From: a virus
Virus record (IMG/VR): IMGVR_UViG_3300030104_004466
Span: 1 to 23,188 of that record
Strand: one strand, 5' to 3'
DNA: 23,188 nt
Below the pieces are notes generated by a model that saw only the letters and a list, made by a program, of their open reading frames with translations, ran no database searches and had not been told where the DNA came from. A program made the position numbers and the translations under genes. Of this stretch, positions 3,101 through 23,186 are shown piece by piece. Numbering within the stretch: the first letter of the stretch is position 1; every line of letters starts with the position of its first letter.

Positions 3101-3648
3101 CCGTCACAGCGTTAACGACTTTCATCAAAGTTATGGATGCCCAAGGTAACGTTCAAGACCGTTATCAAAATGCGAAGCGTGACAATATAGGGTCTCTCAC
3201 AAATTCAGATAGTAGTAAGGACGCTACTTATGTAAAGCGTTCAGGCAACTCGATTTCGTTTAAGAGTGCTTCAGATACCAGTAATTCAGATTACTATTAC
3301 TTACCTTTTATTTATCAAGGCGCAACAAAGAACCGTAGTGGTGACAACTTAGAAGCAGCTTTGGTTTTAGCGAACAATGCAGTAGCAATGAACAGAGCTA
3401 GAGAAGCGGTAACGAATAAATGGTCTATTGAAGTTAGTGTTTGTTTAGTTGATCCTTCTACACTCGCTCACCAAAGAACACTGACTACAGATAACTGGTT
3501 AGCCAGTGGCATGAGTTATGACACACAAAATATAGAGGTCATTCTTTCGTCAGCAATTGACGCGGTAGGTGCGGTATCTCCGAATCGAGTTTTGACTACA
3601 GATATGGTGGGTCACTTACCTACATCAGCGTCTATTAGAAATATTTGA
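3097..3648 (+). CDS. Minor tail protein, lambda gpL-like, without the cysteine-rich C-terminus
   Basis: This 183-residue protein lies directly after the tape measure gene and overlaps it as ATGA. Residues about 95-175 follow the core of lambda gpL/DUF1833-type tail-tip proteins: a segment resembling 'valDpsT..' ending in IEVILSSAIDAVGAVSPNRV, which parallels the 'LSSP.D..ga.fPgR' motif of gpL. In lambda, gpL helps build the distal tail hub and carries four C-terminal cysteines that hold an iron-sulfur cluster. Here the protein stops right after the core (SASIRNI) and has a single cysteine (SVCLVD), so that cluster cannot be present. Its role is inferred to be distal-tail assembly between the tape measure and the tip protein. 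The family match is by pattern and position, so it could instead be annotated only as a DUF1833-type protein. Confidence 0.7.
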   Translation: MTVTALTTFIKVMDAQGNVQDRYQNAKRDNIGSLTNSDSSKDATYVKRSGNSISFKSASDTSNSDYYYLPFIYQGATKNRSGDNLEAALVLANNAVAMNRAREAVTNKWSIEVSVCLVDPSTLAHQRTLTTDNWLASGMSYDTQNIEVILSSAIDAVGAVSPNRVLTTDMVGHLPTSASIRNI

Positions 3649-4052
3649 AGCCACACCAGTTAGTTGGAATGCCATATCGCTTGGGTGCTGATCCTGAGAA
3701 ACATGGCAGTGCAGATTGTCTTTCCTTAGCTAGGTGCGTCTTACGTTATTACGGAGTTAAGTCACCTGCTCCAACTAGAGAGTGGTATCGCAGATTGAAG
3801 AGTAAGGATTATGCAATCTTCAAAGAACAGTTAGAGTTATGGGGAGTTAGGGTAAAGCACCCTAAGATAAGAACCGTTGGACTATGTAGATCTGATGACG
3901 GTTTTGGACTATCTATTTACTGGGAGGGAGGATGGCTAAATTTTCAGAAGATATTCGGAGAGTCGGAGGTGGTATGGAGCCCCGCCGAGGCATTAGAACT
4001 CGAAGGTCTTTATTACCCCAAGAAGCAGAACTATGTAATTTCATCGGTCTAA
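3645..4052 (+). CDS. NlpC/P60-like tail protein (gpK-like), probable catalytic His missing
   Basis: This 135-residue protein starts with TTG, overlapping the previous stop as TTGA; an in-frame TAG at 3636-3638 blocks any earlier start. Residues 7-37 fit the NlpC/P60 catalytic-Cys region: G-x-P-Y-R-L-G followed by A-D-C-L-S-L-A and a helix ending in Gly, with Cys25 as the expected nucleophile. Phage members sit at the tail tip and cut peptidoglycan as DNA enters. The second motif normally reads 'H-x-G-I-x-x-G'; here the matching strand (residues 84-100, DGFGLSIYWEGGWLNF) has no histidine. The only histidines are at 4, 20 and 72. The protein may be enzymatically inactive and purely structural, or may use another residue. 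Its last 40 codons overlap the tip protein gene in another frame. Confidence 0.75.
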   Translation: MKPHQLVGMPYRLGADPEKHGSADCLSLARCVLRYYGVKSPAPTREWYRRLKSKDYAIFKEQLELWGVRVKHPKIRTVGLCRSDDGFGLSIYWEGGWLNFQKIFGESEVVWSPAEALELEGLYYPKKQNYVISSV

Positions 4053-7000
4053 GCGAAGACGAATATTTCCACTTTCTTGACTTAACTGAGTCGCATAACA
4101 ATAAGCGAGCTAAGGCATACGATTTAGTACCCGATATTGTTAATGCTGATGTCGCTCTTCAATTAGCAATCGCAATTGTTGTCGGCATTATCCAAAACAT
4201 GCTGGCTCCCAAGCCAAAAGCACCGAAGACACCGCCATCATTAACAACAGACGCAGCTAGTGGACCTGCTAGATACGCACCACAACAGGGTTTTGACTCA
4301 GTACAAGATTTAGCCAAGATTGGTGAAACAGTACCTTTAGTCTTTGCTAATAGAAGTAATTCGGAGACGAATAGTTACGGGGGAGTACGTGTAAACACAA
4401 GACTGCTCTGGTCTCAAATGAGAAGTCTTAGCACTGGACAGCAATTAAAAGCGATATTCATGCTATCGGGAGGAAGACTTGGAGTAGAGCCAGAATTTTC
4501 TGGTTATGCCCTCGGTGATACAACCTTAGAAAATTACACCAATGCGAAACTAGCTCTCTATGCAAATAAAAATGGAGGCCGTTTAACCGAGAGTGATCGT
4601 TATGATGAAGGAACTTTAGAGCAAGAAAAAGACCGTAATAATAGTGAAACGACTGATCCATTTTCAGTTGATTGGGATCCTTCTAACGGTTTTAGTAGTC
4701 AAGTATTTTCGGGAGCAAGATCACCCAGTACACAAACTCAATTTGGAGCTTTTTCTCCAATGAGTAATGCAATGGCATATCGCGTTACTTATGAATTGGT
4801 TTTAAAAGGTAAGGATCTGAGTGATGAGAATAAAGAAGATATTGATACTAAAAGAGCAAAGCTAGAGAAGATGTTTCCTCGTTATGCCTGTATTACCAAG
4901 GCCGTAGATAAAAATGGGACTTCAAAGACAAATAATTTTGAAACAGATGATGTAATTACATACAAGATTACAAATCTAGATCCTAGAGAAGAATATGAAG
5001 GTGATTATGAGCCTTGGGGCGTTGAGGACGTAAAAAGCGGAGTGGATTCAGACAGAACTAATGCTGATACAAGCTTGGCAGTCGGTGACTTGTATCTATT
5101 AGGGGAAGCTTTAGCAGTAGCAACTAAAATTACGTACACATCTAATGAAGAAAACGGTTTATGGCTACCTAAACCTAAGACTGAAGTTGAAGTGGAGTTT
5201 AAGGTTGTTGAAGGAGGTGAGATTGATATAAAACCTAATGGTCTTTTAGATGTTAATTACCCTTTTGAAGTACTAATACCACAGAGAGCTGCAATCGGAA
5301 CTGTCACTAATACCCGTACATGTGACGCAACAGAGATAGGAATTAAGTCAGAAGTATGGAAGCAAATCTCGGGGTTTCCTAATGTTAATAGTCATCCGGG
5401 TCATATAAAGTATGACGAGGTCGGTGTTGTAAAAGACTACGAAGATGACAACGGAAATATACAGCTAGGGCAAATTTCTAAATATATAAACCGGTTAAGT
5501 TTCTTTCGCTTATTTGGTCGTGCCGCTGGTGATACTTCCGATAACTCTTGGGTACTACTAGATGGTGGTGTTCCTTTTTGTGTTAAAGGAAATACACCAC
5601 AACCCCAATACAATTTTATTCGCATTAATCATAAGTTTTTAAGTGATCACCAATATGAATTTAGGCTTGTTCCTTACCCCGGTAATTTAGTTAAGAAAAG
5701 GTTTATCGGAGAGTATATACGGCTTTTACATAAAGATAAGTTGGCGAAAGTTGATCCGGTAGCACAGATAAAAGGTGATTCTCTTGAAGTTTATTATTCA
5801 GGCGACTTATATAGATTAGAGGGAAATAGGGCTACAAATCCAGAATGGTATTTAGGTAATCTGCCCGATGACTTAGACGGTACTTCTACATCTGGAATAA
5901 CCACAGGTTTCGAGGCTACGGGGTTTTTATCGATACCTTCTGTAAATGGGTATATAGAAGACGGTAGAGAGTACGAAGATGATGGTGATTATGATATTTA
6001 TGAATGCGTTTTGTTTTGGTCGCCTAGTAACGATCTATATAGGATTACTTATCAATGGCACAATAGTTATGTAGGAACTGTCAGCGGAAGCTTAAACGAT
6101 TCTGATACCCCTAATCCAAACAGTTTTGCTAATACGACTCAGCATAGTGTATTTAAAAAGGGATATAGGTATAGTCCCGGTAATCTTGTAGACAGTAGTG
6201 GCAACTATTACCGCTATGAAATAGTAAGGGGTATTCCGGCTGTGACAGACGGAGGAACAATGGCAGTTCAAACTGTTTCTCTAAACGCAACAGAGGGTAA
6301 TACCGGTACAGGATTAACGATTGATGTAACGGTTTATCTAACCTCTCAAAGCGGAGCTTTCCCCGCCACTTGGAAAATCAATACACCCGGAACGGGTTAT
6401 ACAGATAATGCTTATGTCTCATTTACGTATAACGTACCCGGCGGTGGCACTCAAACTTATGTAGGAAGAATGTACACAGAAGATTCTTCTCTTGTTTCAG
6501 ATAGACCGTGGCCCGCAGGAAATAACCTAAATCCGTTTGATGCTATATCTGATTTTTACTTATATGACGCAGAAAGAAGTAGCCACTTAAATGGTCCTGA
6601 GCATGAGATAGTAGCGGTCAATGAATTAGTGCAGACAGGTGGAACCATTACATATAAAGAAGGTGATTTTGGTATAGCTCTTGCTGGTTTAAGAATTAAT
6701 AGCTCGAAAGAATGGTCTAATTTTTCACAACTTTCTGCATATATTAAGCGCGGTATTCTTGTAGAGGATCTTTATAACAACCCCGGAGACACACCCACTT
6801 TAAATAAGAGATCTTCAAATCTATTTCCTGAAATAGCATATTACTTACTAACTTCTACAGAAAACGGCGCGGGTAATTTAGTAGGTGCGACAAGTGTAGA
6901 GAGATCAGATATGGCGAAGGCAGCAAAGTTTTGTGCAGCTAATGGGTTTTATTGGGATGGAGTTATCACAGAGAAGCAGAATTTAAGAGAGTTTATTTTT

Positions 7001-7798
7001 GAGCAAGCCTCTTATTGCTTTTTGGATTTTGTAATACTTGGAGGAAAGTTTAGTTTAAGGCCAACTGTACCTATAACCGGTACACATCAAATTGACTTCA
7101 ACGCTACACCGACAATTAGCGCACTTTTCACAGACGGAAATATGCGTGATTTAAAAGTGGCGTGGTTAACCCCCGAGGAACGTCAGTTATTTACAGCAAA
7201 TGTCATTTATAGAGAGGAGAAAGATAACGGCTTCCCTGAGACAAAGCTGTATTCAACACGTCTTAGATCTGGTAGTGCTAGTGATCCTATTGAGACTTTT
7301 GATTTCTCTAATTTCTGTACTCGGGTAGATCACGCCGTATGGTTTGCTAAGTACGCTCTTAAGGTCAGAGAGTTAGTGGACCATGGCATAACTTTCCAAA
7401 CCACACCTACAGCAGCGGCGGGTTTACAGCCCGGTCAGTACATCAGAGTTGTAAGCGAGGCGACCCATACCAGTCGTTTTTCTAACGGAAGTATTTCCAA
7501 TGATGGAAGTATTCAAAGTTCTAGACCTGTAACGAATGGCATGTCTATTTATTCATGGAAACCCGGAGACGATGATGTTACCTCAACAGAATTGTATATA
7601 GCCAACGGTAAAGCAACCAATTCAAGTCTGTTTGGCTGTGTGTTTACCCAAAATCAAACCGAGACAACTTCTCGTTGTTACAAAGTTGAGGAGATAACTT
7701 TTGATGATGAAGGGTTTATTGAAGTAGCGGGTTCTTATGTACCGTTAACGTCCACAGGAACATTAGAGGTCTTAGAATGGAGTAACCAGTTTATTTAA
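3932..7798 (+). CDS. Tail tip attachment / host specificity protein (gpJ-like)
   Basis: At 1288 residues this is in the size range of lambda gpJ and follows the gpK-like gene, as J-type genes do. The N-terminus has the pattern of phage tip proteins: a segment with GLSEDEYFHFLDLTE at about 39-53, a hydrophobic helix at about 74-92, then a Lys/Pro-rich linker (APKPKAPKTPP), which together resemble the gpI/J membrane-like N-terminus. Further on are conserved tip-like stretches (FRLFGRAAGDTSDNSWVLLD; DLKVAWLTPEERQLFTANVI; PGQYIRVVSEA). In the family this protein forms the tail tip and contacts the host receptor. The chosen ATG follows GGGAGGGAGG closely. A second in-frame ATG at 3974 also has GGAGG 5 bases upstream; it would shorten the protein by 14 residues and cut the overlap with the preceding gene from 121 to 79 bases. 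Confidence 0.85.
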   Translation: MAKFSEDIRRVGGGMEPRRGIRTRRSLLPQEAELCNFIGLSEDEYFHFLDLTESHNNKRAKAYDLVPDIVNADVALQLAIAIVVGIIQNMLAPKPKAPKTPPSLTTDAASGPARYAPQQGFDSVQDLAKIGETVPLVFANRSNSETNSYGGVRVNTRLLWSQMRSLSTGQQLKAIFMLSGGRLGVEPEFSGYALGDTTLENYTNAKLALYANKNGGRLTESDRYDEGTLEQEKDRNNSETTDPFSVDWDPSNGFSSQVFSGARSPSTQTQFGAFSPMSNAMAYRVTYELVLKGKDLSDENKEDIDTKRAKLEKMFPRYACITKAVDKNGTSKTNNFETDDVITYKITNLDPREEYEGDYEPWGVEDVKSGVDSDRTNADTSLAVGDLYLLGEALAVATKITYTSNEENGLWLPKPKTEVEVEFKVVEGGEIDIKPNGLLDVNYPFEVLIPQRAAIGTVTNTRTCDATEIGIKSEVWKQISGFPNVNSHPGHIKYDEVGVVKDYEDDNGNIQLGQISKYINRLSFFRLFGRAAGDTSDNSWVLLDGGVPFCVKGNTPQPQYNFIRINHKFLSDHQYEFRLVPYPGNLVKKRFIGEYIRLLHKDKLAKVDPVAQIKGDSLEVYYSGDLYRLEGNRATNPEWYLGNLPDDLDGTSTSGITTGFEATGFLSIPSVNGYIEDGREYEDDGDYDIYECVLFWSPSNDLYRITYQWHNSYVGTVSGSLNDSDTPNPNSFANTTQHSVFKKGYRYSPGNLVDSSGNYYRYEIVRGIPAVTDGGTMAVQTVSLNATEGNTGTGLTIDVTVYLTSQSGAFPATWKINTPGTGYTDNAYVSFTYNVPGGGTQTYVGRMYTEDSSLVSDRPWPAGNNLNPFDAISDFYLYDAERSSHLNGPEHEIVAVNELVQTGGTITYKEGDFGIALAGLRINSSKEWSNFSQLSAYIKRGILVEDLYNNPGDTPTLNKRSSNLFPEIAYYLLTSTENGAGNLVGATSVERSDMAKAAKFCAANGFYWDGVITEKQNLREFIFEQASYCFLDFVILGGKFSLRPTVPITGTHQIDFNATPTISALFTDGNMRDLKVAWLTPEERQLFTANVIYREEKDNGFPETKLYSTRLRSGSASDPIETFDFSNFCTRVDHAVWFAKYALKVRELVDHGITFQTTPTAAAGLQPGQYIRVVSEATHTSRFSNGSISNDGSIQSSRPVTNGMSIYSWKPGDDDVTSTELYIANGKATNSSLFGCVFTQNQTETTSRCYKVEEITFDDEGFIEVAGSYVPLTSTGTLEVLEWSNQFI

Positions 7799-16596: not shown

Positions 16597-17673
16597 ATGA
16601 GAAATCATTATGTAAGAGCAGCAGCAGGTGGCGAGGGGAACAATGTAGAAGATTTTTTTGGAGCTGTTACATACACTGGTGATGATGGAACTGATAGAGC
16701 TATTACAGTAGGTTCAGGGATTAATTTTGCAACTCACGGTGGAATGGTATGGATAAAAAACCGTGATGTAAGTGCGGGTCATGTACTTCAAGACACTGTA
16801 AGAGGAGATGGCCCCCTTAAAAGGCTTGATTTAAGTACTGCTAATAAACAAGATTTTGCAAGCACAGGGGGTCACATAAATTCTTTTACAAGTTCAGGTT
16901 TTAAAGTAGATGTGGGTACTAGTAGTGATCAACAGACAAATGAAGAGACAAATAAAAATGGTCGTGATTATGTAGCTTATGGTTTTAGGAAGAAGGCAGG
17001 TTTTTTCGACATCCAAACTTGGACTGGAAACAGCACTAGTAATAGACAAATTTCACATGACCTAGATAGCGTTCCAGGTGCTATTTTTGTGAAAAATATC
17101 ACTTCTAATTCAAATAATTGGTGGGGGTATCACAGGAAAATAAATGCTAATGGTGGCAACCCCGCAGAAGACTATTATTTAACTCTGAATGCGATGAATA
17201 GCAAAACAAACACTGTAAACGCATGGATTGACACTGCTCCAACTTCAACTCATTTTACTATTGGAGCGCAATCTGAGAACAACCTAAATGGTCAAACATA
17301 TATTGCTTATATCTTTGCCCATGATGATGCTCGCTTTGGTACGTCGCAAGATAAAGAAATAATCAAATGCGATTTTTATTGGGGAGCCACTGCTGGACAA
17401 ACTGTCAATCTTGGATGGAAACCACAGTTTTTATGGATCACAAGACCAGATGGCACTCGAAACCGCTGTGTTTTTGACTTAGCAAGAGGTATTCCAGCAG
17501 GTACCTATAACACCCCACGTATTCAAGCAAATAGAGCTAATGCTGAAGATACTGATAATTATCTAAATGTGACATCTACAGGGTTTACATTACCTCCTTA
17601 CTCAACAAACACACAAGATGTAAATCAAAATAACGGAGTCTTTATTTATATAGCTATTAGGGAGACGACATAA
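16597..17673 (+). CDS. Receptor-binding type fibre protein (DUF7483-like repeats)
   Basis: This 358-residue protein begins two bases after the preceding stop with MRNHYVRAAAGG, the same first ten residues as the adhesin at 18149. The body contains a repeat seen in many marine phage fibres: a 'GGMVWIKNRDVSAGHVLQD' unit, then GRDYVAYGFRKKAGFFDIQT with ISHDLDSVPGAIFVKN, then GQTYIAYIFAHDDARFG with GWKPQFLWITRPDG and FDLARGIP. Each unit runs as Y-[VI]-A-Y, a strand with a W or F pair, a G/H-x-L..P strand, then a K/R strand. I connect this with DUF7483-type domains, from memory. It is probably a host-surface ligand carried on the tail. The gene that follows encodes a chaperone-like protein, which may help fold this one. 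Confidence 0.75.
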   Translation: MRNHYVRAAAGGEGNNVEDFFGAVTYTGDDGTDRAITVGSGINFATHGGMVWIKNRDVSAGHVLQDTVRGDGPLKRLDLSTANKQDFASTGGHINSFTSSGFKVDVGTSSDQQTNEETNKNGRDYVAYGFRKKAGFFDIQTWTGNSTSNRQISHDLDSVPGAIFVKNITSNSNNWWGYHRKINANGGNPAEDYYLTLNAMNSKTNTVNAWIDTAPTSTHFTIGAQSENNLNGQTYIAYIFAHDDARFGTSQDKEIIKCDFYWGATAGQTVNLGWKPQFLWITRPDGTRNRCVFDLARGIPAGTYNTPRIQANRANAEDTDNYLNVTSTGFTLPPYSTNTQDVNQNNGVFIYIAIRETT

Positions 17674-17708: not shown

Positions 17709-18152
17709 ATGGCTGAATATAGAAGACGCTCTGATGGATTACTTGTAGATAGTGTTCATGCGTTAAAGACCGCTAGTCCTAATGTAAGTTTTCCTGATGA
17801 TCTAAAAGAAGCCACCTTGAATGGTGTGGGGTGGGACGTTGTGCAAGAGGAATCAAAACCAACAACAACTGTTTACCAACAAGCAGTGAGAAATGGTGCA
17901 GTACAAGATGACATTGGTAGATGGAAACAATCATATGAACTAAAAACACTTGATAAAACAACTGTTGATAATGAAAAAGCTGTAGAGATTAGAAATGAAA
18001 GAGATCTATTACTAAAAGAAACTGACTGGACTCAAAGTAGAGATGTCACCTTATCTAATGACGCTGACTATAAAACCTATAGAGAAAACTTAAGGAATTT
18101 ACCGACTCAAAGTGGCTTCCCTCATAACGTTGTATGGCCCACTAAACCATGA
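17709..18152 (+). CDS. Tail fibre assembly chaperone-like protein (Phage_tail_APC type), copy 1
   Basis: This 147-residue protein ends in the pattern of the phage tail assembly chaperone family (Pfam Phage_tail_APC): RNERDLLLKETDWTQSRDV, then YKTYRENLRNLPTQSGFP and VVWPTKP at the very end. The N-terminal part (YRRRSDGLLVDSVHALKT, then NVSFP) is the variable portion. Such proteins are usually encoded right after the fibre or adhesin they assist. Here the gene lies 35 bases after one adhesin gene and overlaps the next as ATGA. A second family member is at 19031-19552. Whether it is a chaperone or a minor virion part has not been settled for many members, so the role is inference from family and position. 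Confidence 0.8.
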   Translation: MAEYRRRSDGLLVDSVHALKTASPNVSFPDDLKEATLNGVGWDVVQEESKPTTTVYQQAVRNGAVQDDIGRWKQSYELKTLDKTTVDNEKAVEIRNERDLLLKETDWTQSRDVTLSNDADYKTYRENLRNLPTQSGFPHNVVWPTKP

Positions 18153-19009
18153 GGAACCATTACGTTAGAGCAGCAGCAGCAGCATCGGCAGGAGGTAACT
18201 ATGTAACTGATAATTTAGTCTTTCATCTAGACGCTGCAAACACTAGTTGCTATTCAGGTAGTGGAACAACGGTTAATAGTTTAGTTAATAACCATACGAA
18301 TGATCACTTTGGAGATATGCAATGGGACAGTGATAGTGGTGGAAATACAGGCGGCTATTTCTATACAGATGGTACGCAAACTTCAACCTTGCAATTTCCA
18401 TATTCAACAGATTTTGAGATGATGCAATATTCTTCAGGAGGGTCAACCGCTGAAGTTACAGATTATTCGTGGGAGTGGTGGTGGTATGGAGACAGCAGCC
18501 CAGGTAGTGCTGGTAATGTTTGCCCACATTTTGCTTTGAATTGGAGGGATGGTAATTCTGTCGAGGGGGTTTTAGATACAGGGGGGCAGAACACTCAATA
18601 TAAAGGTTGTTATATGTTATATAGAAATCAGGATAAGGATAGGTCACATTTTAGGGACGGGAGTAATGCCACTGGTGGAAATGCTCTAGGTAATAGCTAT
18701 GCTGCTTTACTAGAGGAACACACATGGACTGGCTCAAAATGGCAGCACTATGTTTTAACAAAGACAGCCAATACTGGCTCTGCTAATAATTGGAGTTGGT
18801 ATAGAGACAATAGAACCGCTATTAATTATAATCAAACATTTTCTACTCTTTATCACAATACTTCCAAAAAATTATTAATCTTTTCTGAGTGGGGAAGTGG
18901 TAACCGTTTTGATGGAAGACTAGGTGTTATGCGTTTTTATCAAGGTAAAGCTTTAACAGCAGCAGAAGTTGAACAAAACTATGATGCAGAGAAGTCAAGA
19001 TATACTTAG
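18149..19009 (+). CDS. LamG/concanavalin A-like adhesin
   Basis: This 286-residue protein opens with MRNHYVRAAAAASAGG, repeating the tag of the adhesin at 16597 although the DNA differs at most synonymous sites. The body fits a LamG-type jelly-roll: NLVFHLDAANTSCYSGSGTT at about 22-41, SWEWWWYGD at about 104-112, WTGSKWQHYVLTKTANTG at about 193-210, and the C-terminal signature FDGRLGVMRFYQGKALTAAE with VEQNYDAEK. This fold binds sugars and glycans, so a role in binding host surface polysaccharide is likely; no hydrolase residues are evident. The start overlaps the preceding stop (ATGA). Codon choice in the first nine codons differs from the 16597 copy, so the shared tag is old or kept by selection. 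Confidence 0.8.
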   Translation: MRNHYVRAAAAASAGGNYVTDNLVFHLDAANTSCYSGSGTTVNSLVNNHTNDHFGDMQWDSDSGGNTGGYFYTDGTQTSTLQFPYSTDFEMMQYSSGGSTAEVTDYSWEWWWYGDSSPGSAGNVCPHFALNWRDGNSVEGVLDTGGQNTQYKGCYMLYRNQDKDRSHFRDGSNATGGNALGNSYAALLEEHTWTGSKWQHYVLTKTANTGSANNWSWYRDNRTAINYNQTFSTLYHNTSKKLLIFSEWGSGNRFDGRLGVMRFYQGKALTAAEVEQNYDAEKSRYT

Positions 19010-19030: not shown

Positions 19031-19552
19031 ATGTACGTCAAATTAAAAGACAACGCTGTTGAAAAATTTCCTTATTCAATAGGCGATTTAAAGAAAGACA
19101 ATCCAAACGTCTCGTTTCCTAAAGTATTTTCATCTGAAATAATGGCAACCTTTGGGATTGCTGCTGTCACAGTTGAAGAGAAGCCTTCTTTTAATTCAGT
19201 AACACAAAAAGTTTCACAAAAAACAACACCTGAATTAAGTGATGGCAAGTGGGTATTGAAATGGGATACAAATAGCAAAGCTCAGTCTGTTATTGATACA
19301 GAAAAAAGTGATCAACAAAATAGTATTAGAAGAGAAAGAAACACTTTATTATCTCAATCTGACTGGAGTATTAACAGTGATAGCCAGTTAACTGAGGATG
19401 AAGTAACGAAATGGAAGACATATAGACAAGCGTTGAGAGACTCAACATTGCAGACTAGTTTTGCAGGTTCTTCTACTGCCTTACCTTTTGTTAGCTGGCC
19501 TACAAAACCAGCAACTACAACCCCACAACCTGATCCAGAAGACGTAATATAA
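19031..19552 (+). CDS. Tail fibre assembly chaperone-like protein (Phage_tail_APC type), copy 2
   Basis: This 173-residue protein is the second member of the family at 17709-18152. It shares NPNVSFP near residue 30 with ASPNVSFP of copy 1, and the C-terminal signature RRERNTLLSQSDWSINSDS, WKTYRQALRDSTLQ and VSWPTKP. It then extends past the family's usual end with a Pro/Thr-rich tail (ATTTPQPDPEDVI). N-terminally MYVKLKDNAVEKFPYSIGDL is of a type common in cyanophage fibre-assembly proteins. It follows the LamG adhesin at 21 bases, repeating the adhesin-then-chaperone order. No Shine-Dalgarno is visible before its ATG. Confidence 0.8.
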   Translation: MYVKLKDNAVEKFPYSIGDLKKDNPNVSFPKVFSSEIMATFGIAAVTVEEKPSFNSVTQKVSQKTTPELSDGKWVLKWDTNSKAQSVIDTEKSDQQNSIRRERNTLLSQSDWSINSDSQLTEDEVTKWKTYRQALRDSTLQTSFAGSSTALPFVSWPTKPATTTPQPDPEDVI

Positions 19553-19614: not shown

Positions 19615-19797
19615 ATGGCAGATTTAAACCAGCTTGTTCAACAAAGAGCAAATTTAGCAAAGCAATACAACGAAGCTCTTGAGAGATACCAGAAAGCAGC
19701 CGACGTAGAATTGCAGGCCATTCAAAAGGACAGAGTGGATAACCAAAAGCAAATTGACGAGATTTTAAATAACAACGCTGGTCTTCCAGATGCTTAA
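19615..19797 (+). CDS. Small coiled-coil protein, function unknown
   Basis: This 60-residue protein (MADLNQLVQQRANLAKQYNE...) is almost wholly helical and charged, with heptad-like spacing of Leu, Ala and Ile from residue 4 to 50 and no membrane segment. I do not recognise a family. It begins the four-gene cassette: its last 8 bases overlap the next gene, and the ATG has no Shine-Dalgarno but lies 16 bases after the second TATAAT repeat. Its neighbours are membrane proteins, so it might be a soluble partner or regulator of them. That it is real is supported by the coupling to the next gene. Confidence 0.7.
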   Translation: MADLNQLVQQRANLAKQYNEALERYQKAADVELQAIQKDRVDNQKQIDEILNNNAGLPDA

Positions 19798-19987
19798 GAT
19801 CCTTACCTTCATCAACACTGCCGCGCTTGTCGCGGCTGTTGGTGGTGGGGCTTTTGTTTACATGAAGAGAGCCGACTATGTAAACGACATGATTCTTACT
19901 GTCCAAGATCAGGTCATTAGGAACATGCAAAGCACAATTAAAACACCCAAGCTTCCTAGTAATACCGGTTCTGTTTTACCTTTCTAA
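19790..19987 (+). CDS. Small single-span membrane protein
   Basis: This 65-residue protein has one hydrophobic segment at about residues 6-25 (TFINTAALVAAVGGGAFVYM) followed by a basic turn (KR) and an amphipathic tail with IRNMQSTIKTPKLP. A one-span protein of this size beside tail genes could be a holin-like or accessory lysis protein, but there is no lysozyme or peptidase gene nearby to support that and the positive charge after the span suggests the tail is cytoplasmic. Comparable short 'ALIGGG' membrane proteins occur in cyanophage genomes as far as I recall, without known function. Both junctions are overlapping (8 bases before, TAATG after). Confidence 0.75.
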   Translation: MLKILTFINTAALVAAVGGGAFVYMKRADYVNDMILTVQDQVIRNMQSTIKTPKLPSNTGSVLPF

Positions 19988-20547
19988 TGATCCAGTTTAA
20001 GTCATTTAATGGTCTTACTTCTTTAGTGCTAGGCGGTGGTTTGATAGCGACTAACTTTATGAGCTTAAATATGCTTGCTCGTAAAGACTCCGGCATCCCT
20101 GATATAGCAAAGCTTTCTAGTACTCCTTACAGCAGTCTTCAAATTAGGAGCGAAAAGGGTGCTGATGGTGCAGAGGAGTGGACTTTAAATTCTCGTCAAC
20201 ATGACCCTAAAACTATGTTGAGCTATACCGATGAGACTTCGCCAACTTTCTCAGGAAAAACCAAAACAAAATATACACATAAAGAGTCAGTTGCCCAATT
20301 TGCGATTTTTCCGCGTGGAGAGAACGGAAAACTGACCCAAAAACAGATTGAATGTATTGAGAAATCTTCGATGGCGAAGGGTAATGCTCAGATGATTTCA
20401 GATACCGGTAATACAATGTATGTCACTCCGGCTCTTGCCAGTTTGCCTGTGGTCGGTCCCGTTATTTCTGCGCTATGGTTCGGCCAAAGTCGTAAGGTTG
20501 CGGCTGACTTAGGTAAAGATATAGCTGACCGATGGAATGATTGCTAG
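19987..20547 (+). CDS. Protein with two hydrophobic segments, function unknown
   Basis: This 186-residue protein has an N-terminal hydrophobic stretch (about 9-30, GLTSLVLGGGLIATNFMSL) followed by a basic turn, a polar middle of about 110 residues with no motif I know, and a second hydrophobic stretch at about 145-166 (YVTPALASLPVVGPVISALW). The ending is polar and closes with Cys. The N-terminal segment could be a signal anchor. It has two cysteines (ECIEK and the final residue). It overlaps the upstream gene by one base and abuts the next gene, so its dose should track theirs. I do not recognise a family and infer a membrane role only. Confidence 0.65.
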   Translation: MIQFKSFNGLTSLVLGGGLIATNFMSLNMLARKDSGIPDIAKLSSTPYSSLQIRSEKGADGAEEWTLNSRQHDPKTMLSYTDETSPTFSGKTKTKYTHKESVAQFAIFPRGENGKLTQKQIECIEKSSMAKGNAQMISDTGNTMYVTPALASLPVVGPVISALWFGQSRKVAADLGKDIADRWNDC

Positions 20548-21423
20548 GTGGAAATAAAAGCCCCTTACATACCAGAACCAAGAGTTAAGAATTTATCTGA
20601 AATAGTACTAATACCACCGGCTGAAATAATTCCTCCCACTACTTTAGGTGAACTGCCTTTTGGCTTCGTTCCCATTATTGATTTGCCTTGTGTTGTAGCG
20701 AGGGATAAGAAGACTGGAATAGGTGATGAGATGTTTAATGTTGACCCTAGAAATAACTTAACTCTGTGTGATCATGCTCCGGTAGTTGTTGTCGCAGCTA
20801 GTAGCGGCTCAATTGTTGAAGATATATCAGAAACAACTCCCAAACCAGAACCCCCAGTCGAATTACTAAATCAACTACAAGAGACACTAAATAAGGAAGA
20901 GTTAAACAATGAAAGAGAGGTAGTGAAAAAGAAGGATGGAAAGAAAGACAACAAAAAAGATACCAATGTAAGTCAAAATCTTGACCTCAACTCAGTTAAT
21001 GAATCCAATAATACCGGTTTTATTACAGAAGTCTTGCCTTGTCCACCCTTAGATACACTTGCTAAAACTCCTATTGGGTCTTTAGGCAAAGGAGGTTTGG
21101 CAAGAATAAAAGGGTGGCAGCGAAGCGAGGTTACAGGTAAATGTGAAACAGTTTGGGAAGGACTAAACCCGTTAGAAATTGCAGGTAATTACGCGCCACA
21201 GCCAACGGTTCTTGTTAATACCAGTGCTATAGCTGTCGGATCAGTTGTTGCTGTTACTGCAATCGGTCAACCCATAGCAAAGTTCGTTCAGAAACAATTA
21301 AAAGGTCAAATAAAATCGTTTTCTAAAAAGATAACCAAGAAGTTATTAGCTATTCGGGGGAAGAAGGAGAAGATATTGTCCCTTTCTGAAAGGAGAAAGG
21401 CGCAGAAGGATCTACGAAAATAG
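20548..21423 (+). CDS. Pro-rich protein with a C-terminal membrane anchor and basic tail
   Basis: This 291-residue protein starts with GTG directly after the preceding TAG. Its N-terminus is Pro-rich (APYIPEPRVKNLSEIVLIPP, then ELPFGFVPIIDLPC), followed by an acidic then a very basic low-complexity linker at about 98-140. Next comes VLPCPPLDTLAKTPIGSLGK, then a GY/W-x-x..GKCETVWEGL segment, then one hydrophobic span (about 225-243) and a Lys-rich tail (FVQKQLKGQIKSFSKKITKK). This layout agrees with a family of cyanophage membrane proteins I remember without a known role. The Lys-rich tail after the span suggests a cytoplasmic C-terminus, with about 220 residues on the outer side. Cysteines are at 48, 74, 165 and 199. 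The last 74 bases overlap the opposite-strand gene. Confidence 0.7.
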   Translation: MEIKAPYIPEPRVKNLSEIVLIPPAEIIPPTTLGELPFGFVPIIDLPCVVARDKKTGIGDEMFNVDPRNNLTLCDHAPVVVVAASSGSIVEDISETTPKPEPPVELLNQLQETLNKEELNNEREVVKKKDGKKDNKKDTNVSQNLDLNSVNESNNTGFITEVLPCPPLDTLAKTPIGSLGKGGLARIKGWQRSEVTGKCETVWEGLNPLEIAGNYAPQPTVLVNTSAIAVGSVVAVTAIGQPIAKFVQKQLKGQIKSFSKKITKKLLAIRGKKEKILSLSERRKAQKDLRK

Positions 21424-22078
21424 AGTGCTTGTGATCTATGAGGGTTCCGGGCTTAGAAACTAATTCGATGTCGTGGCATAAAATTTCGTACTTAGTCCCT
21501 TTTTTAAATCTAACTCCACTCTTAAATAATTCGGAGCAGTGCTTTGCTCGTCCAAGCTCAAACGACATTCTGGCGTCTGCGTGTTTAGCGGAGAGCAAGT
21601 TAACGATATGCTTTTGACCCTCTCTGCACTTTCTTACGCTCTTCCGATCTAAATTCACATTCCAACTCAGGCTAACTCCGGGGCTAATTGCATAGTTCTT
21701 TTTCTCAAAACGTCTTGCAGTTCTGTAGCCACGAATCAAAGTTGGATCATCTACTTCACCATCACCTATCTCATTACCATTATCGTCAAAAGCTCCCTTT
21801 ACATCTTTAGTTGAATATACCGGTTCGGGGTAGCTGTCGATCATAGGATTTGCCCCAGAAAAGCTGCTAGTTAAAAATGGCTGTATTACTAGCGTGTCTC
21901 CCTGACATTGGATTTGGTTTAAGGACAACGTATTTGTAAATTGTTTACTTGGCATATTCATTACACCTAGATTTGTGACAGATCCGGACGAGTTGCTAAC
22001 GGGATTGTTAGTCATTGTGGTATCTGCAATTACAGGGCTATTTATTAACAACAGGCTTAATATTAGACCGCGTTTCAT
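21350..22078 (-). CDS. Exported protein, four cysteines, function unknown
   Basis: This 242-residue protein has a Sec-type signal peptide (MKRGLILSLLLINSPVIA, cleavage after Ala18). The mature part starts Ser/Asn/Thr-rich (TNNPVSNSSGSVTNLGVMNM), then carries QIQCQGDTLVIQPF and a Ca-loop-like acidic stretch (DDNGNEIGDGEVDD). Its C-terminal half contains SWNVNLDRKSVRKC, SFELGRAKHCSEL and GTKYEILCHDI, then LIDHKHSIFVDP. The pattern LDRK..C, the [RS]-[FL]-x-x-x-R-x-K-x-C-x-E-L helix and a final H-x-H-S-I agree with a family of secreted proteins I recall from cyanophages, function unknown. Four cysteines could form two disulfides in the periplasm or outside the cell. It is last in the opposite-strand operon, 9 bases after the previous stop, and its final 74 bases overlap the convergent gene. 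Confidence 0.75.
   Translation of the reverse strand: MKRGLILSLLLINSPVIADTTMTNNPVSNSSGSVTNLGVMNMPSKQFTNTLSLNQIQCQGDTLVIQPFLTSSFSGANPMIDSYPEPVYSTKDVKGAFDDNGNEIGDGEVDDPTLIRGYRTARRFEKKNYAISPGVSLSWNVNLDRKSVRKCREGQKHIVNLLSAKHADARMSFELGRAKHCSELFKSGVRFKKGTKYEILCHDIELVSKPGTLIDHKHSIFVDPSAPFSFQKGTISSPSSPE
21381..21400. other. Inverted repeat in the convergent overlap
   Basis: CCTTTCT (21381-21387) and AGAAAGG (21394-21400) form a 7-base perfect inverted repeat with a 6-base loop, inside the 74-base overlap of the two convergent genes. Its position suggests a shared transcription stop, but neither strand carries a T run after it, so it is not called a terminator. Confidence 0.3.
21636..21650. other. 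15-base match to Illumina adapter sequence
   Basis: ACGCTCTTCCGATCT equals the last 15 bases of the standard Illumina read-1 adapter; the reverse complement begins AGATCGGAAGAGCGT. The reading frame passes through it without break and codes for residues about 143-148 (L-D-R-K-S-V), inside a motif that looks native, so it is probably a coincidence and not an assembly join. Confidence 0.85.
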
Positions 22079-22087
22079 ATTATATAG

Positions 22088-22510
22088 TCAGTTACTAAAT
22101 GTAGACATTGTGTCTGTCACTGACTCCGTTATGATTGATCTATTCACTCTTACAAACGATTTTAGCCCCGGTCCTTGATAGCTTTCCAAAAGTTGAGTCG
22201 CTGCTCCTTGGGTGTGCATATTGACTGTAGGTTTAGTGTTAAGGTCAATCCCATAATGAGTAGTAGTAACTCCATCAACTGTGTGACTCCCTGTTGTAAC
22301 AGTTTCAGGCAACATATCACCTGTTATTGATAAGTTTGTACCGTTAACTGTATATTCATAACCTGTCGAATATGTCCAAGATTCTATTAACTCTGTTGTA
22401 TTTTGTTTGCTCTCAGTTCTTGCTGATGTAGACCCACTGTTAAATGATGGAATAACTGGGACCGCTTGTGCTGGTAGGGATATAAAGGCTATTAATAATA
22501 AATAGCGCAT
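22088..22510 (-). CDS. Exported beta-rich protein, no cysteine
   Basis: This 140-residue protein has a signal peptide (MRYLLLIAFISLPAQA, cleavage after the A-Q-A). The mature protein is Ser/Thr-rich and beta-prone: VIPSFNSGSTSARTESKQNT, then ESWTYSTGYEYTVNGTNLSI, then a second half with TKPTVNMHTQGAATQLLESY and GPGLKSFVRVNRSIITESV. The layout 'NFxSGS..., [ST]-G-x-E-Y-x-V-x-G-x-N-[LI], ...Y-x-G-P-G-L...T-x-x-x-F-[S]' is one I remember from cyanophage and picocyanobacterial proteins of unknown function. Its start and the preceding gene's stop share one base (TAATG on the minus strand), so the two are co-translated. No enzymatic or lipobox motif is visible. Confidence 0.75.
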   Translation of the reverse strand: MRYLLLIAFISLPAQAVPVIPSFNSGSTSARTESKQNTTELIESWTYSTGYEYTVNGTNLSITGDMLPETVTTGSHTVDGVTTTHYGIDLNTKPTVNMHTQGAATQLLESYQGPGLKSFVRVNRSIITESVTDTMSTFSN

Positions 22511-23016
22511 TAATTTCCAATCTCTAAAGAACTAGAAATACTACCGGTTACGCTAGATCCGCTTGCTCCGGGTGCGAGTGTAATTGTGCCTCCTGAGACT
22601 GATGTGATCGCAATTGACATTCCGTTATTTGAACCACCCGCGTATGAAATAACGTCACCACCTGTCGGCAATGTAGTTAAGCCACTATGCGTCAGCGATG
22701 CAGCCGAGGGTGTTGCTGATCCTTGAGAATACGATTCACTAAAACTCGTTGCCGCGCCAGAAAGTGTCTGACTATACGAACCGCTGCCAAGAGTAGCCGC
22801 AACTCCCGTAAGAGTTCCATCTGACGAGGCTGGCACATCCAAGTGCCCAAGGGCTGCGGATGTAATTCCCGTGCTCGACATTGAATAGACTGACGGAGTT
22901 GCCTTTACGTGAGAGTAAGCACCGTCAACAGTTCCTTGTGCGGTAGCTGTAATTTTGTGAACCATACCGGCTTGGGTAGGTACAGCTAGAAAGAAGAGAA
23001 GTAGTAAGCGTTTCAT
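22510..23016 (-). CDS. Exported beta-rich, Ser/Gly/Thr-rich protein
   Basis: This 168-residue protein has a signal peptide (MKRLLLLFFLAVPTQA, cleavage after A-Q-A). The mature part starts GMVHKITATAQGTVDGAYSH and is low in charge and high in Ser, Gly, Thr and Ala, with loosely repeated strands (YSQTLSGAATSFSESYSQGS; GGTITLAPGASGSSVTGSIS). This composition suits an extracellular or periplasmic beta structure, possibly fibrous; an amyloid-like fibre is only a guess from composition. I recall similar proteins (HKI..., then FSFSESYTQG-like strand) in cyanophages, function unknown. Its start overlaps the stop of the upstream gene as ATGA on the minus strand. Confidence 0.75.
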   Translation of the reverse strand: MKRLLLLFFLAVPTQAGMVHKITATAQGTVDGAYSHVKATPSVYSMSSTGITSAALGHLDVPASSDGTLTGVAATLGSGSYSQTLSGAATSFSESYSQGSATPSAASLTHSGLTTLPTGGDVISYAGGSNNGMSIAITSVSGGTITLAPGASGSSVTGSISSSLEIGN

Positions 23017-23186
23017 GTGAGGCGACCTGTTTGAGGATCAACTATTTTATTAGTAATTGGGTCAATTTTCGGTTCAACTGGTACTAATTTTATTGGGGTT
23101 TCTACTCTGATTGTTTGATAATTACCTGATTGATTAGCTAATAAGGCTTGTATCTCTTTTTTGTTCATAGGCTTTTCATCTGGGTT
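23013..23186 (-). CDS. 3' part of a fourth minus-strand gene, running off the window
   Basis: On the minus strand a frame is open from the window edge to TGA at 23013-23015 and reads NPDEKPMNKKEIQALLANQS, then TIRVETPIKLVPVEPKIDP and ITNKIVDPQTGRLT. The stop overlaps the ATG of the next gene (ATGA), which is strong support for a real coding frame. An internal ATG at 23166-23168 could be the start of a short 51-residue protein, or the gene may continue beyond the window. The segment is Pro/Lys/Ile-rich and hydrophilic, with no signal peptide in the visible part. I do not recognise the family. Confidence 0.6.
   Translation of the reverse strand, partial: NPDEKPMNKKEIQALLANQSGNYQTIRVETPIKLVPVEPKIDPITNKIVDPQTGRLT

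Follow-up and report, generated by a model that had tools for sequence, protein, structure and literature searches.

The stretch of DNA analysed here (IMG/VR virus record IMGVR_UViG_3300030104_004466, positions 1 to 23,188; hereafter the window, 23,188 nucleotides) ends in a cassette of seven genes, in which three predicted secreted proteins (A, B and C) and a small predicted membrane protein (Z218) are encoded on the minus strand, facing a plus-strand trio (P414, E and D; 19790-21423) that ends against C. The window phage is taken to be long-tailed from its tape-measure gene; no sheath gene was seen within the 23-kb window, and its hosts are inferred from its relatives. The gene order, P414-E-D> <C-B-A-Z218, is made up of the following features:

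19790-19987, plus strand: P414, 65 residues with one helix, T4-GC414 family, which bears the label 'plasmid stability' (phrog_568 E=1.3e-4; profile E=4e-14)
19987-20547, plus strand: E, T4-GC219 family (phrog_605 E=6.7e-12)
20548-21423, plus strand: D, T4-GC234 family (phrog_570 E=2.4e-18; synteny; hydropathy and cysteine counts)
21350-21423, both strands: tail-to-tail overlap of C and D, 74 bp at both 3' ends (from the sequence)
21350-22078, minus strand: C, secreted four-cysteine protein, 242 residues, T4-GC235 family (phrog_848/1755; phrog_848 E=4.7e-49)
22025-22078, minus strand: signal peptide of C, MKRGLILSLLLINSPVIA, next residue D (sequence, rule-based test)
22088-22510, minus strand: B, secreted beta-rich protein, 140 residues, DUF6322 (PF19847), T4-GC236 family (phrog_650)
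22463-22510, minus strand: signal peptide of B, MRYLLLIAFISLPAQA, next residue V (sequence, rule-based test)
22510-23016, minus strand: A, secreted Ser/Gly/Thr-rich protein, 168 residues, T4-GC237 family (phrog_564 E=1.7e-18)
22969-23016, minus strand: signal peptide of A, MKRLLLLFFLAVPTQA, next residue G (sequence, rule-based test)
23013-23186, minus strand: Z218, C-terminal part of a T4-GC218/DUF6450-type small two-transmembrane protein, the remainder lying past the window edge

A nucleotide-level search of this region against phage DNA gave no match, the region being too divergent, so that protein searches were needed. In these, B scored above the curated cut-off of PF19847 (80.8 bits, cut-off 30.6), whereas a match of A to type IV pilins (PF00114) was rejected at 16.2 bits, below the cut-off of 22. 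The T4-GC numbers annotated in the cyanophages Syn33 and S-SM1 match the window genes, which are adjacent there and in the same convergent order; judged by sequence, the window carries the cyanophage cassette T4-GC 218-219-234-235-236-237-414. Sullivan et al. 2010 (PMC3037559) had described this cluster in T4-like cyanophages, as five hypothetical proteins that a 'plasmid stability' protein often accompanies: in the passages of that paper that deal with it, the cassette T4-GC 218/219/234/235/237 (+236, +414) has the same families in the same convergent arrangement as here.

The initial annotation had reported three minus-strand genes with signal peptides, their junctions (ATGA joining the upstream frame to A, TAATG joining A to B, and a gap of nine bases separating B from C), their cysteine counts (none in A and B, four in C) and a fourth frame leaving the window (23013-23186), all of which agree with our analysis. 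It had treated A, B and C as the unit; the real unit is larger, as D, E, P414 and Z218 also belong to it. The 3' overlap of the C/D type is present in 84 of 89 convergent pairs.

Export was evaluated across the family with a home-made rule (n-, h- and c-region, small-x-small site) and not with SignalP. The rule was passed by 84 of 84 relatives of A, 134 of 163 of B and 69 of 172 of C, against 8.5% of 1557 other frames from the same loci. The low count for C is due to the T4-like and T7-like relatives, in which C begins within gene B and so has a long n-region ahead of a normal hydrophobic core and an A-x-A site. These relatives start with an ATG between residues −75 and −85, or with an ATG, GTG or TTG at −50/−36, whereas the window's clade has an ordinary start (MKRG). 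By this rule A, B and C are Sec-exported across the family, and the export signals first noticed in the window are thus a conserved property.

Genes for C that start within B, far before the signal core, occur at loci L001-L005 and L068-L173 of our survey (T4-like and T7-like), and annotated C proteins often have an N-terminal extension or a truncated start. A frameshift or a non-AUG start was considered for the T4-like and T7-like genes and rejected, as nearly all have an in-frame ATG, GTG or TTG at a fixed distance.

Of Z218, the window holds the C-terminal tail, which matches the tail of DUF6450 (PF20048) proteins. In tblastn searches the fragment (23013-23186) had 60% identity (E=4e-13) to the DUF6450 protein of locus L014 and 69% identity (E=2.5e-12) to a sequence in L011, where the match likewise ends just before A. 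Full-length relatives, located directly upstream of A, are assigned to DUF6450; they have 80-160 residues and two hydrophobic segments, the second near the threshold in many, and correspond in outline to class II holins (small, two transmembrane helices, charged ends, late promoter). The initial annotation had suggested a CsgG-like pore past the window edge, but the next gene there is this small two-helix protein.

D has a single transmembrane helix near its C-terminus (about residues 221-239), with a basic tail after it; its N-terminal part is proline-rich, with four cysteines in the window protein, and nearly all members of the family have four, two or none. E carries hydrophobic segments at its N- and C-terminal ends and exactly two cysteines in 27 of 27 relatives, and the four cysteines of C are invariant in 74 sequences. 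These even numbers would fit disulphides formed outside the cytoplasm. P414 relatives have one transmembrane helix in 73 of 76 cases; we reject a 'plasmid stability' function for this one-helix membrane protein of fewer than 90 residues, and also an Rz-like identity, for which the best PHROG reached only E=0.34. The profiles of A and B match each other (probability 96%, E=1.7e-9), which by sequence makes the two proteins paralogues. No enzyme was recognised among the seven cassette proteins.

The unit is conserved across about 170 loci in several genome architectures, and the survey bore out the co-occurrence and order of A, B and C that had been predicted from the window. Syn33, Syn9, ACG-2014i, S-T4 and S-SM1 have the same genes in convergent arrangement, in three of the five beside regA and hsp20; the initial annotation was right in pointing to relatives in contractile-tailed cyanophages. 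MED4-184 and MED4-117 show the order Z218-A-B-C> <D-P414, and most contigs that are not T7-like are of this type, Z218-A-B-C> <D(-P414). The T7-like cyanophages P-SSP7, P-SSP2 and S-RIP1 have a compact D-Z218-B-C operon, found on 71 contigs in all. S-TIM5 carries A-D, and several long-tailed groups also carry the cassette. D, Z218, B and C form the minimal core of the cassette, the T7-like core being without A.

In the tree of C, sequences group mostly by phage type, with S-TIM5 placed within the T4-like clade. We therefore reject recent free movement of the cassette; this tree suggests few transfers between tail types, most of them old. The independence of tail type that the initial annotation proposed is supported by the presence in T4-like, T7-like and long-tailed phages and in S-TIM5.

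With a loose threshold, 443 of 50,697 phage records contain a match to C, and nearly all of these are named as marine cyanophages. A scan of one genome collection found no bacterial copy; the seven contigs that it returned resemble pieces of phage DNA that were binned with metagenome or single-cell assemblies. This restriction to cyanophages, together with some T4-like copies that adjoin photosynthesis genes, would suit periplasmic or thylakoid-lumen auxiliaries that keep the host envelope or the photosynthetic membranes working late in infection. We consider this quite improbable: the genome collection held no host homologue, only the phage-like contigs, and the usual T4-like neighbours are regA and hsp20, not photosynthesis genes.

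Some loci have further genes within the cassette. A phrog_591 secreted protein (MKKLLA...ALA) lies between Z218 and P414 at some T4-like loci:

L084 5515-6177, minus strand: phrog_591 insertion between Z218 and P414
L082 13647-14306, minus strand: phrog_591 insertion between Z218 and P414

Between Z218 and A, L023 (8871-9077) and L013 (70-276) encode a 69-residue coiled-coil protein with a C-terminal helix, for which hemolysin XhlA was considered and rejected (phrog_937, only E=0.048 for the L023 copy). L012 (6529-7086) and L014 (846-1403) have at the same place a 186-residue one-helix protein that gave no Pfam or PHROG match. In the T7-like loci L106, L118, L124, L129, L148, L150, L157 and L171 an extra gene of 160-195 residues occupies the gap between Z218 and B; some of these resemble 2OG-Fe(II) oxygenases by eye.

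Evidence on the timing of expression comes from the T4-like phages only. At their loci the late promoter motif NTAAATA, reported for S-PM2 and Syn9 (PMC2984593), precedes A at a short distance in 20 of 27 cases and Z218 in 23 of 27, where 5.5% would be expected, and is present before P414, D and E in 4 of 27, 2 of 30 and 0 of 17, respectively. Its position before A and Z218 suggests two convergent late operons in these phages, A-B-C and Z218-P414-E-D. Superinfection exclusion, one of the functions initially put forward, is disfavoured because the T4-like copies stand behind late promoters.

Late expression in T4-like phages would also be expected of virion-associated proteins, that is, accessory proteins of the tail or fibres that undergo maturation in the periplasm or are added to virions on release. 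In the window and its long-tailed relatives, D, E and P414 indeed form the 3' end of the tail operon. This explanation is very improbable in our view. Sec signal peptides do not fit the assembly of tails in the cytoplasm, and in S-TIM5 the cassette proteins are labelled 'hypothetical' where many others are labelled virion structural, in a record that gives no basis for its labels. S-SZBM1 and S-CREM2, for which virion proteome tables exist, both have genomes without C. The GenBank labels of S-SM1 were rejected as a test of virion association, as T4-GC969, a protein detected by mass spectrometry, is also labelled hypothetical there.

In P-SSP7, the D-Z218-B-C operon is flanked by the tail-fibre genes on one side and the terminase genes (small terminase gene) on the other. 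The slot between tail fibres and terminase is the one occupied in T7 by the lysis genes 17.5/18.5/18.7 (holin, spanin). Pfam scans of 32 P-SSP7 and 43 MED4-117 proteins detected no holin, endolysin or spanin family. We further searched six cyanophage records, five of them cassette-bearing (Syn9, S-SM1, P-SSP7, MED4-117, ACG-2014i), with models of T4 holin, Rz, phage lysozyme, amidase-2, SLT and M15. T4 holin, Rz (PF03245) and amidase-2 had no match in the six records; the lysozyme/M15 match was confined to a single 925-codon frame of S-SM1, and the one SLT match, in a 1052-codon frame of Syn9, fell below threshold. Frames of this length would be typical of virion hydrolases. The lack of a model match is no proof that a lysis function is missing. 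S-SZBM1, which is without C, carries a 'lambda lysozyme', in a sample too small to indicate a swap between cassette and lysis genes.

Sequence profiles of B and C gave no credible match in PDB. In the AlphaFold2 model of B (predicted local distance difference test, pLDDT, 79.5) two strands of 24-25 residues (25-48 and 115-139) run around a small beta domain, and in that of C (pLDDT 66, predicted template modelling score, pTM, 0.33) two strands of 16-17 residues form a beta-hairpin, followed by a 43-residue helix. The weak PDB lists for the two models consist mostly of oligomeric beta-barrel pores (lysenin, aerolysin, anthrax PA, CDTb) and also hold flagellar ring proteins and phage tail-knob barrels. 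B and C share predicted long beta-hairpins with these beta-pore-forming proteins and the flagellar L-ring, but have no significant match (Z ≤4.3, E ≥0.02) and no sequence homology to either, so that the pore theme is a suggestive hint from models.

The weak pore-like matches of C would also fit surface remodelling, the main rival explanation, in which C forms an outer-membrane pore that displays the Ser/Thr/Gly-rich A and B as an extracellular coat or fibre; this would block superinfection, protect released progeny, or alter grazing or aggregation. A and B are indeed secreted, cysteine-free Ser/Gly/Thr-rich beta proteins, and the module follows the host group and not the tail type. Surface remodelling or a secreted coat nevertheless seems doubtful to us: superinfection exclusion would call for earlier expression than the late promoters suggest, neither a CsgG nor an usher family was found, and the T7-like core is without A. 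The likeness to curli and CsgG lies in the secreted Ser/Gly/Thr-rich beta proteins and a possible pore partner; it differs in that the neighbour is a DUF6450 protein, and the cassette proteins scanned gave no CsgG match.

Taken together, the cassette proteins are likely to act in the envelope late in infection. A narrower reading, which we favour tentatively and place somewhat below an even chance, is that they form a late envelope-breaching machine, the lysis or egress module of marine picocyanophages. It is suggested by the late timing, the export signals, the membrane proteins and the position in the T7 lysis slot, as well as by the sharing across tail types in phages of the same hosts and the lack of recognised lysis genes. 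In such a machine, Z218 would be a holin-like inner-membrane protein and D (with E and P414 where present) an inner-membrane anchor whose proline-rich part projects into the periplasm. Exported B, its paralogue A and the disulphide-bonded C would build beta-structured oligomers and with these open the outer membrane from within, taking the role of classical spanins.

Several observations weigh against an envelope-breaching role. Z218 matches no known holin family; D is without a signal peptide, which leaves its topology a guess; confidence in the model of C is low (pLDDT 66, pTM 0.33), and searches with the models of B and C gave nothing significant (best Foldseek E 0.02-0.03; VIA Z ≤4.3). The cassette has no peptidoglycan hydrolase, so that lysis would need a separate enzyme. 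Syn5, S-SZBM1 and S-CREM2 are without the cassette and must manage otherwise, and the cluster is described as present in all T4-like cyanophages but S-PM2 in the part of the account by Sullivan et al. (PMC3037559) that treats it. The lysis reading rests on sequence, position and models and is not yet proven.

The cassette shares with the holin/endolysin/spanin cassettes (T7 17.5-18.5/18.7, lambda S-R-Rz/Rz1) late expression and the combination of a small membrane protein with exported envelope proteins, and its core in P-SSP7 has the genome slot of the T7 lysis genes. It differs from them in matching no holin T, Rz or endolysin model, in having no lytic enzyme, and in its two to three exported beta proteins, where classical systems have one or two spanins. 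That it represents a new kind of Gram-negative lysis, composed of a DUF6450 holin-like protein, the anchor D and beta-barrel-forming B, C and often A, and present in unrelated phages with each of the three tail types, is a rather unlikely extension. B, C and often A would then perforate the outer membrane from inside, whereas spanins fuse the membranes.

Functional clustering and mobility had been proposed for the cassette before, the mobility being ascribed to the 'plasmid stability' protein (PMC3037559); the passages concerned treat T4-like myoviruses only and do not give export signals, timing or function. The literature we searched held nothing on the function, export or timing of the cassette or on its presence outside T4-like phages. 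New here are its extension to T7-like and long-tailed phages and S-TIM5, the export signals, the late promoters, the core genes and the paralogy of A and B. When phages lyse Prochlorococcus and Synechococcus, large amounts of ocean carbon are moved, yet hardly any of the phage genes responsible have been identified. A late set of membrane and secreted proteins that unrelated cyanophages have in common offers a testable candidate for cell exit, and would set right the interpretation as 'plasmid stability' and 'mobile cassette' that is repeated in annotations.

Elsewhere in the window, two Phage_tail_APC (PF16778) fibre-assembly chaperones are encoded on the plus strand (17709-18152 and 19031-19552), each behind a fibre-like gene (16597-17673 and 18149-19009), so that one tail operon probably contains two fibre-plus-chaperone pairs. 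Further upstream, a 135-residue frame (3645-4052, plus strand) overlaps the 1288-residue frame of a tail protein (3932-7798, plus strand) by about 120 nucleotides; a different start codon may be used.

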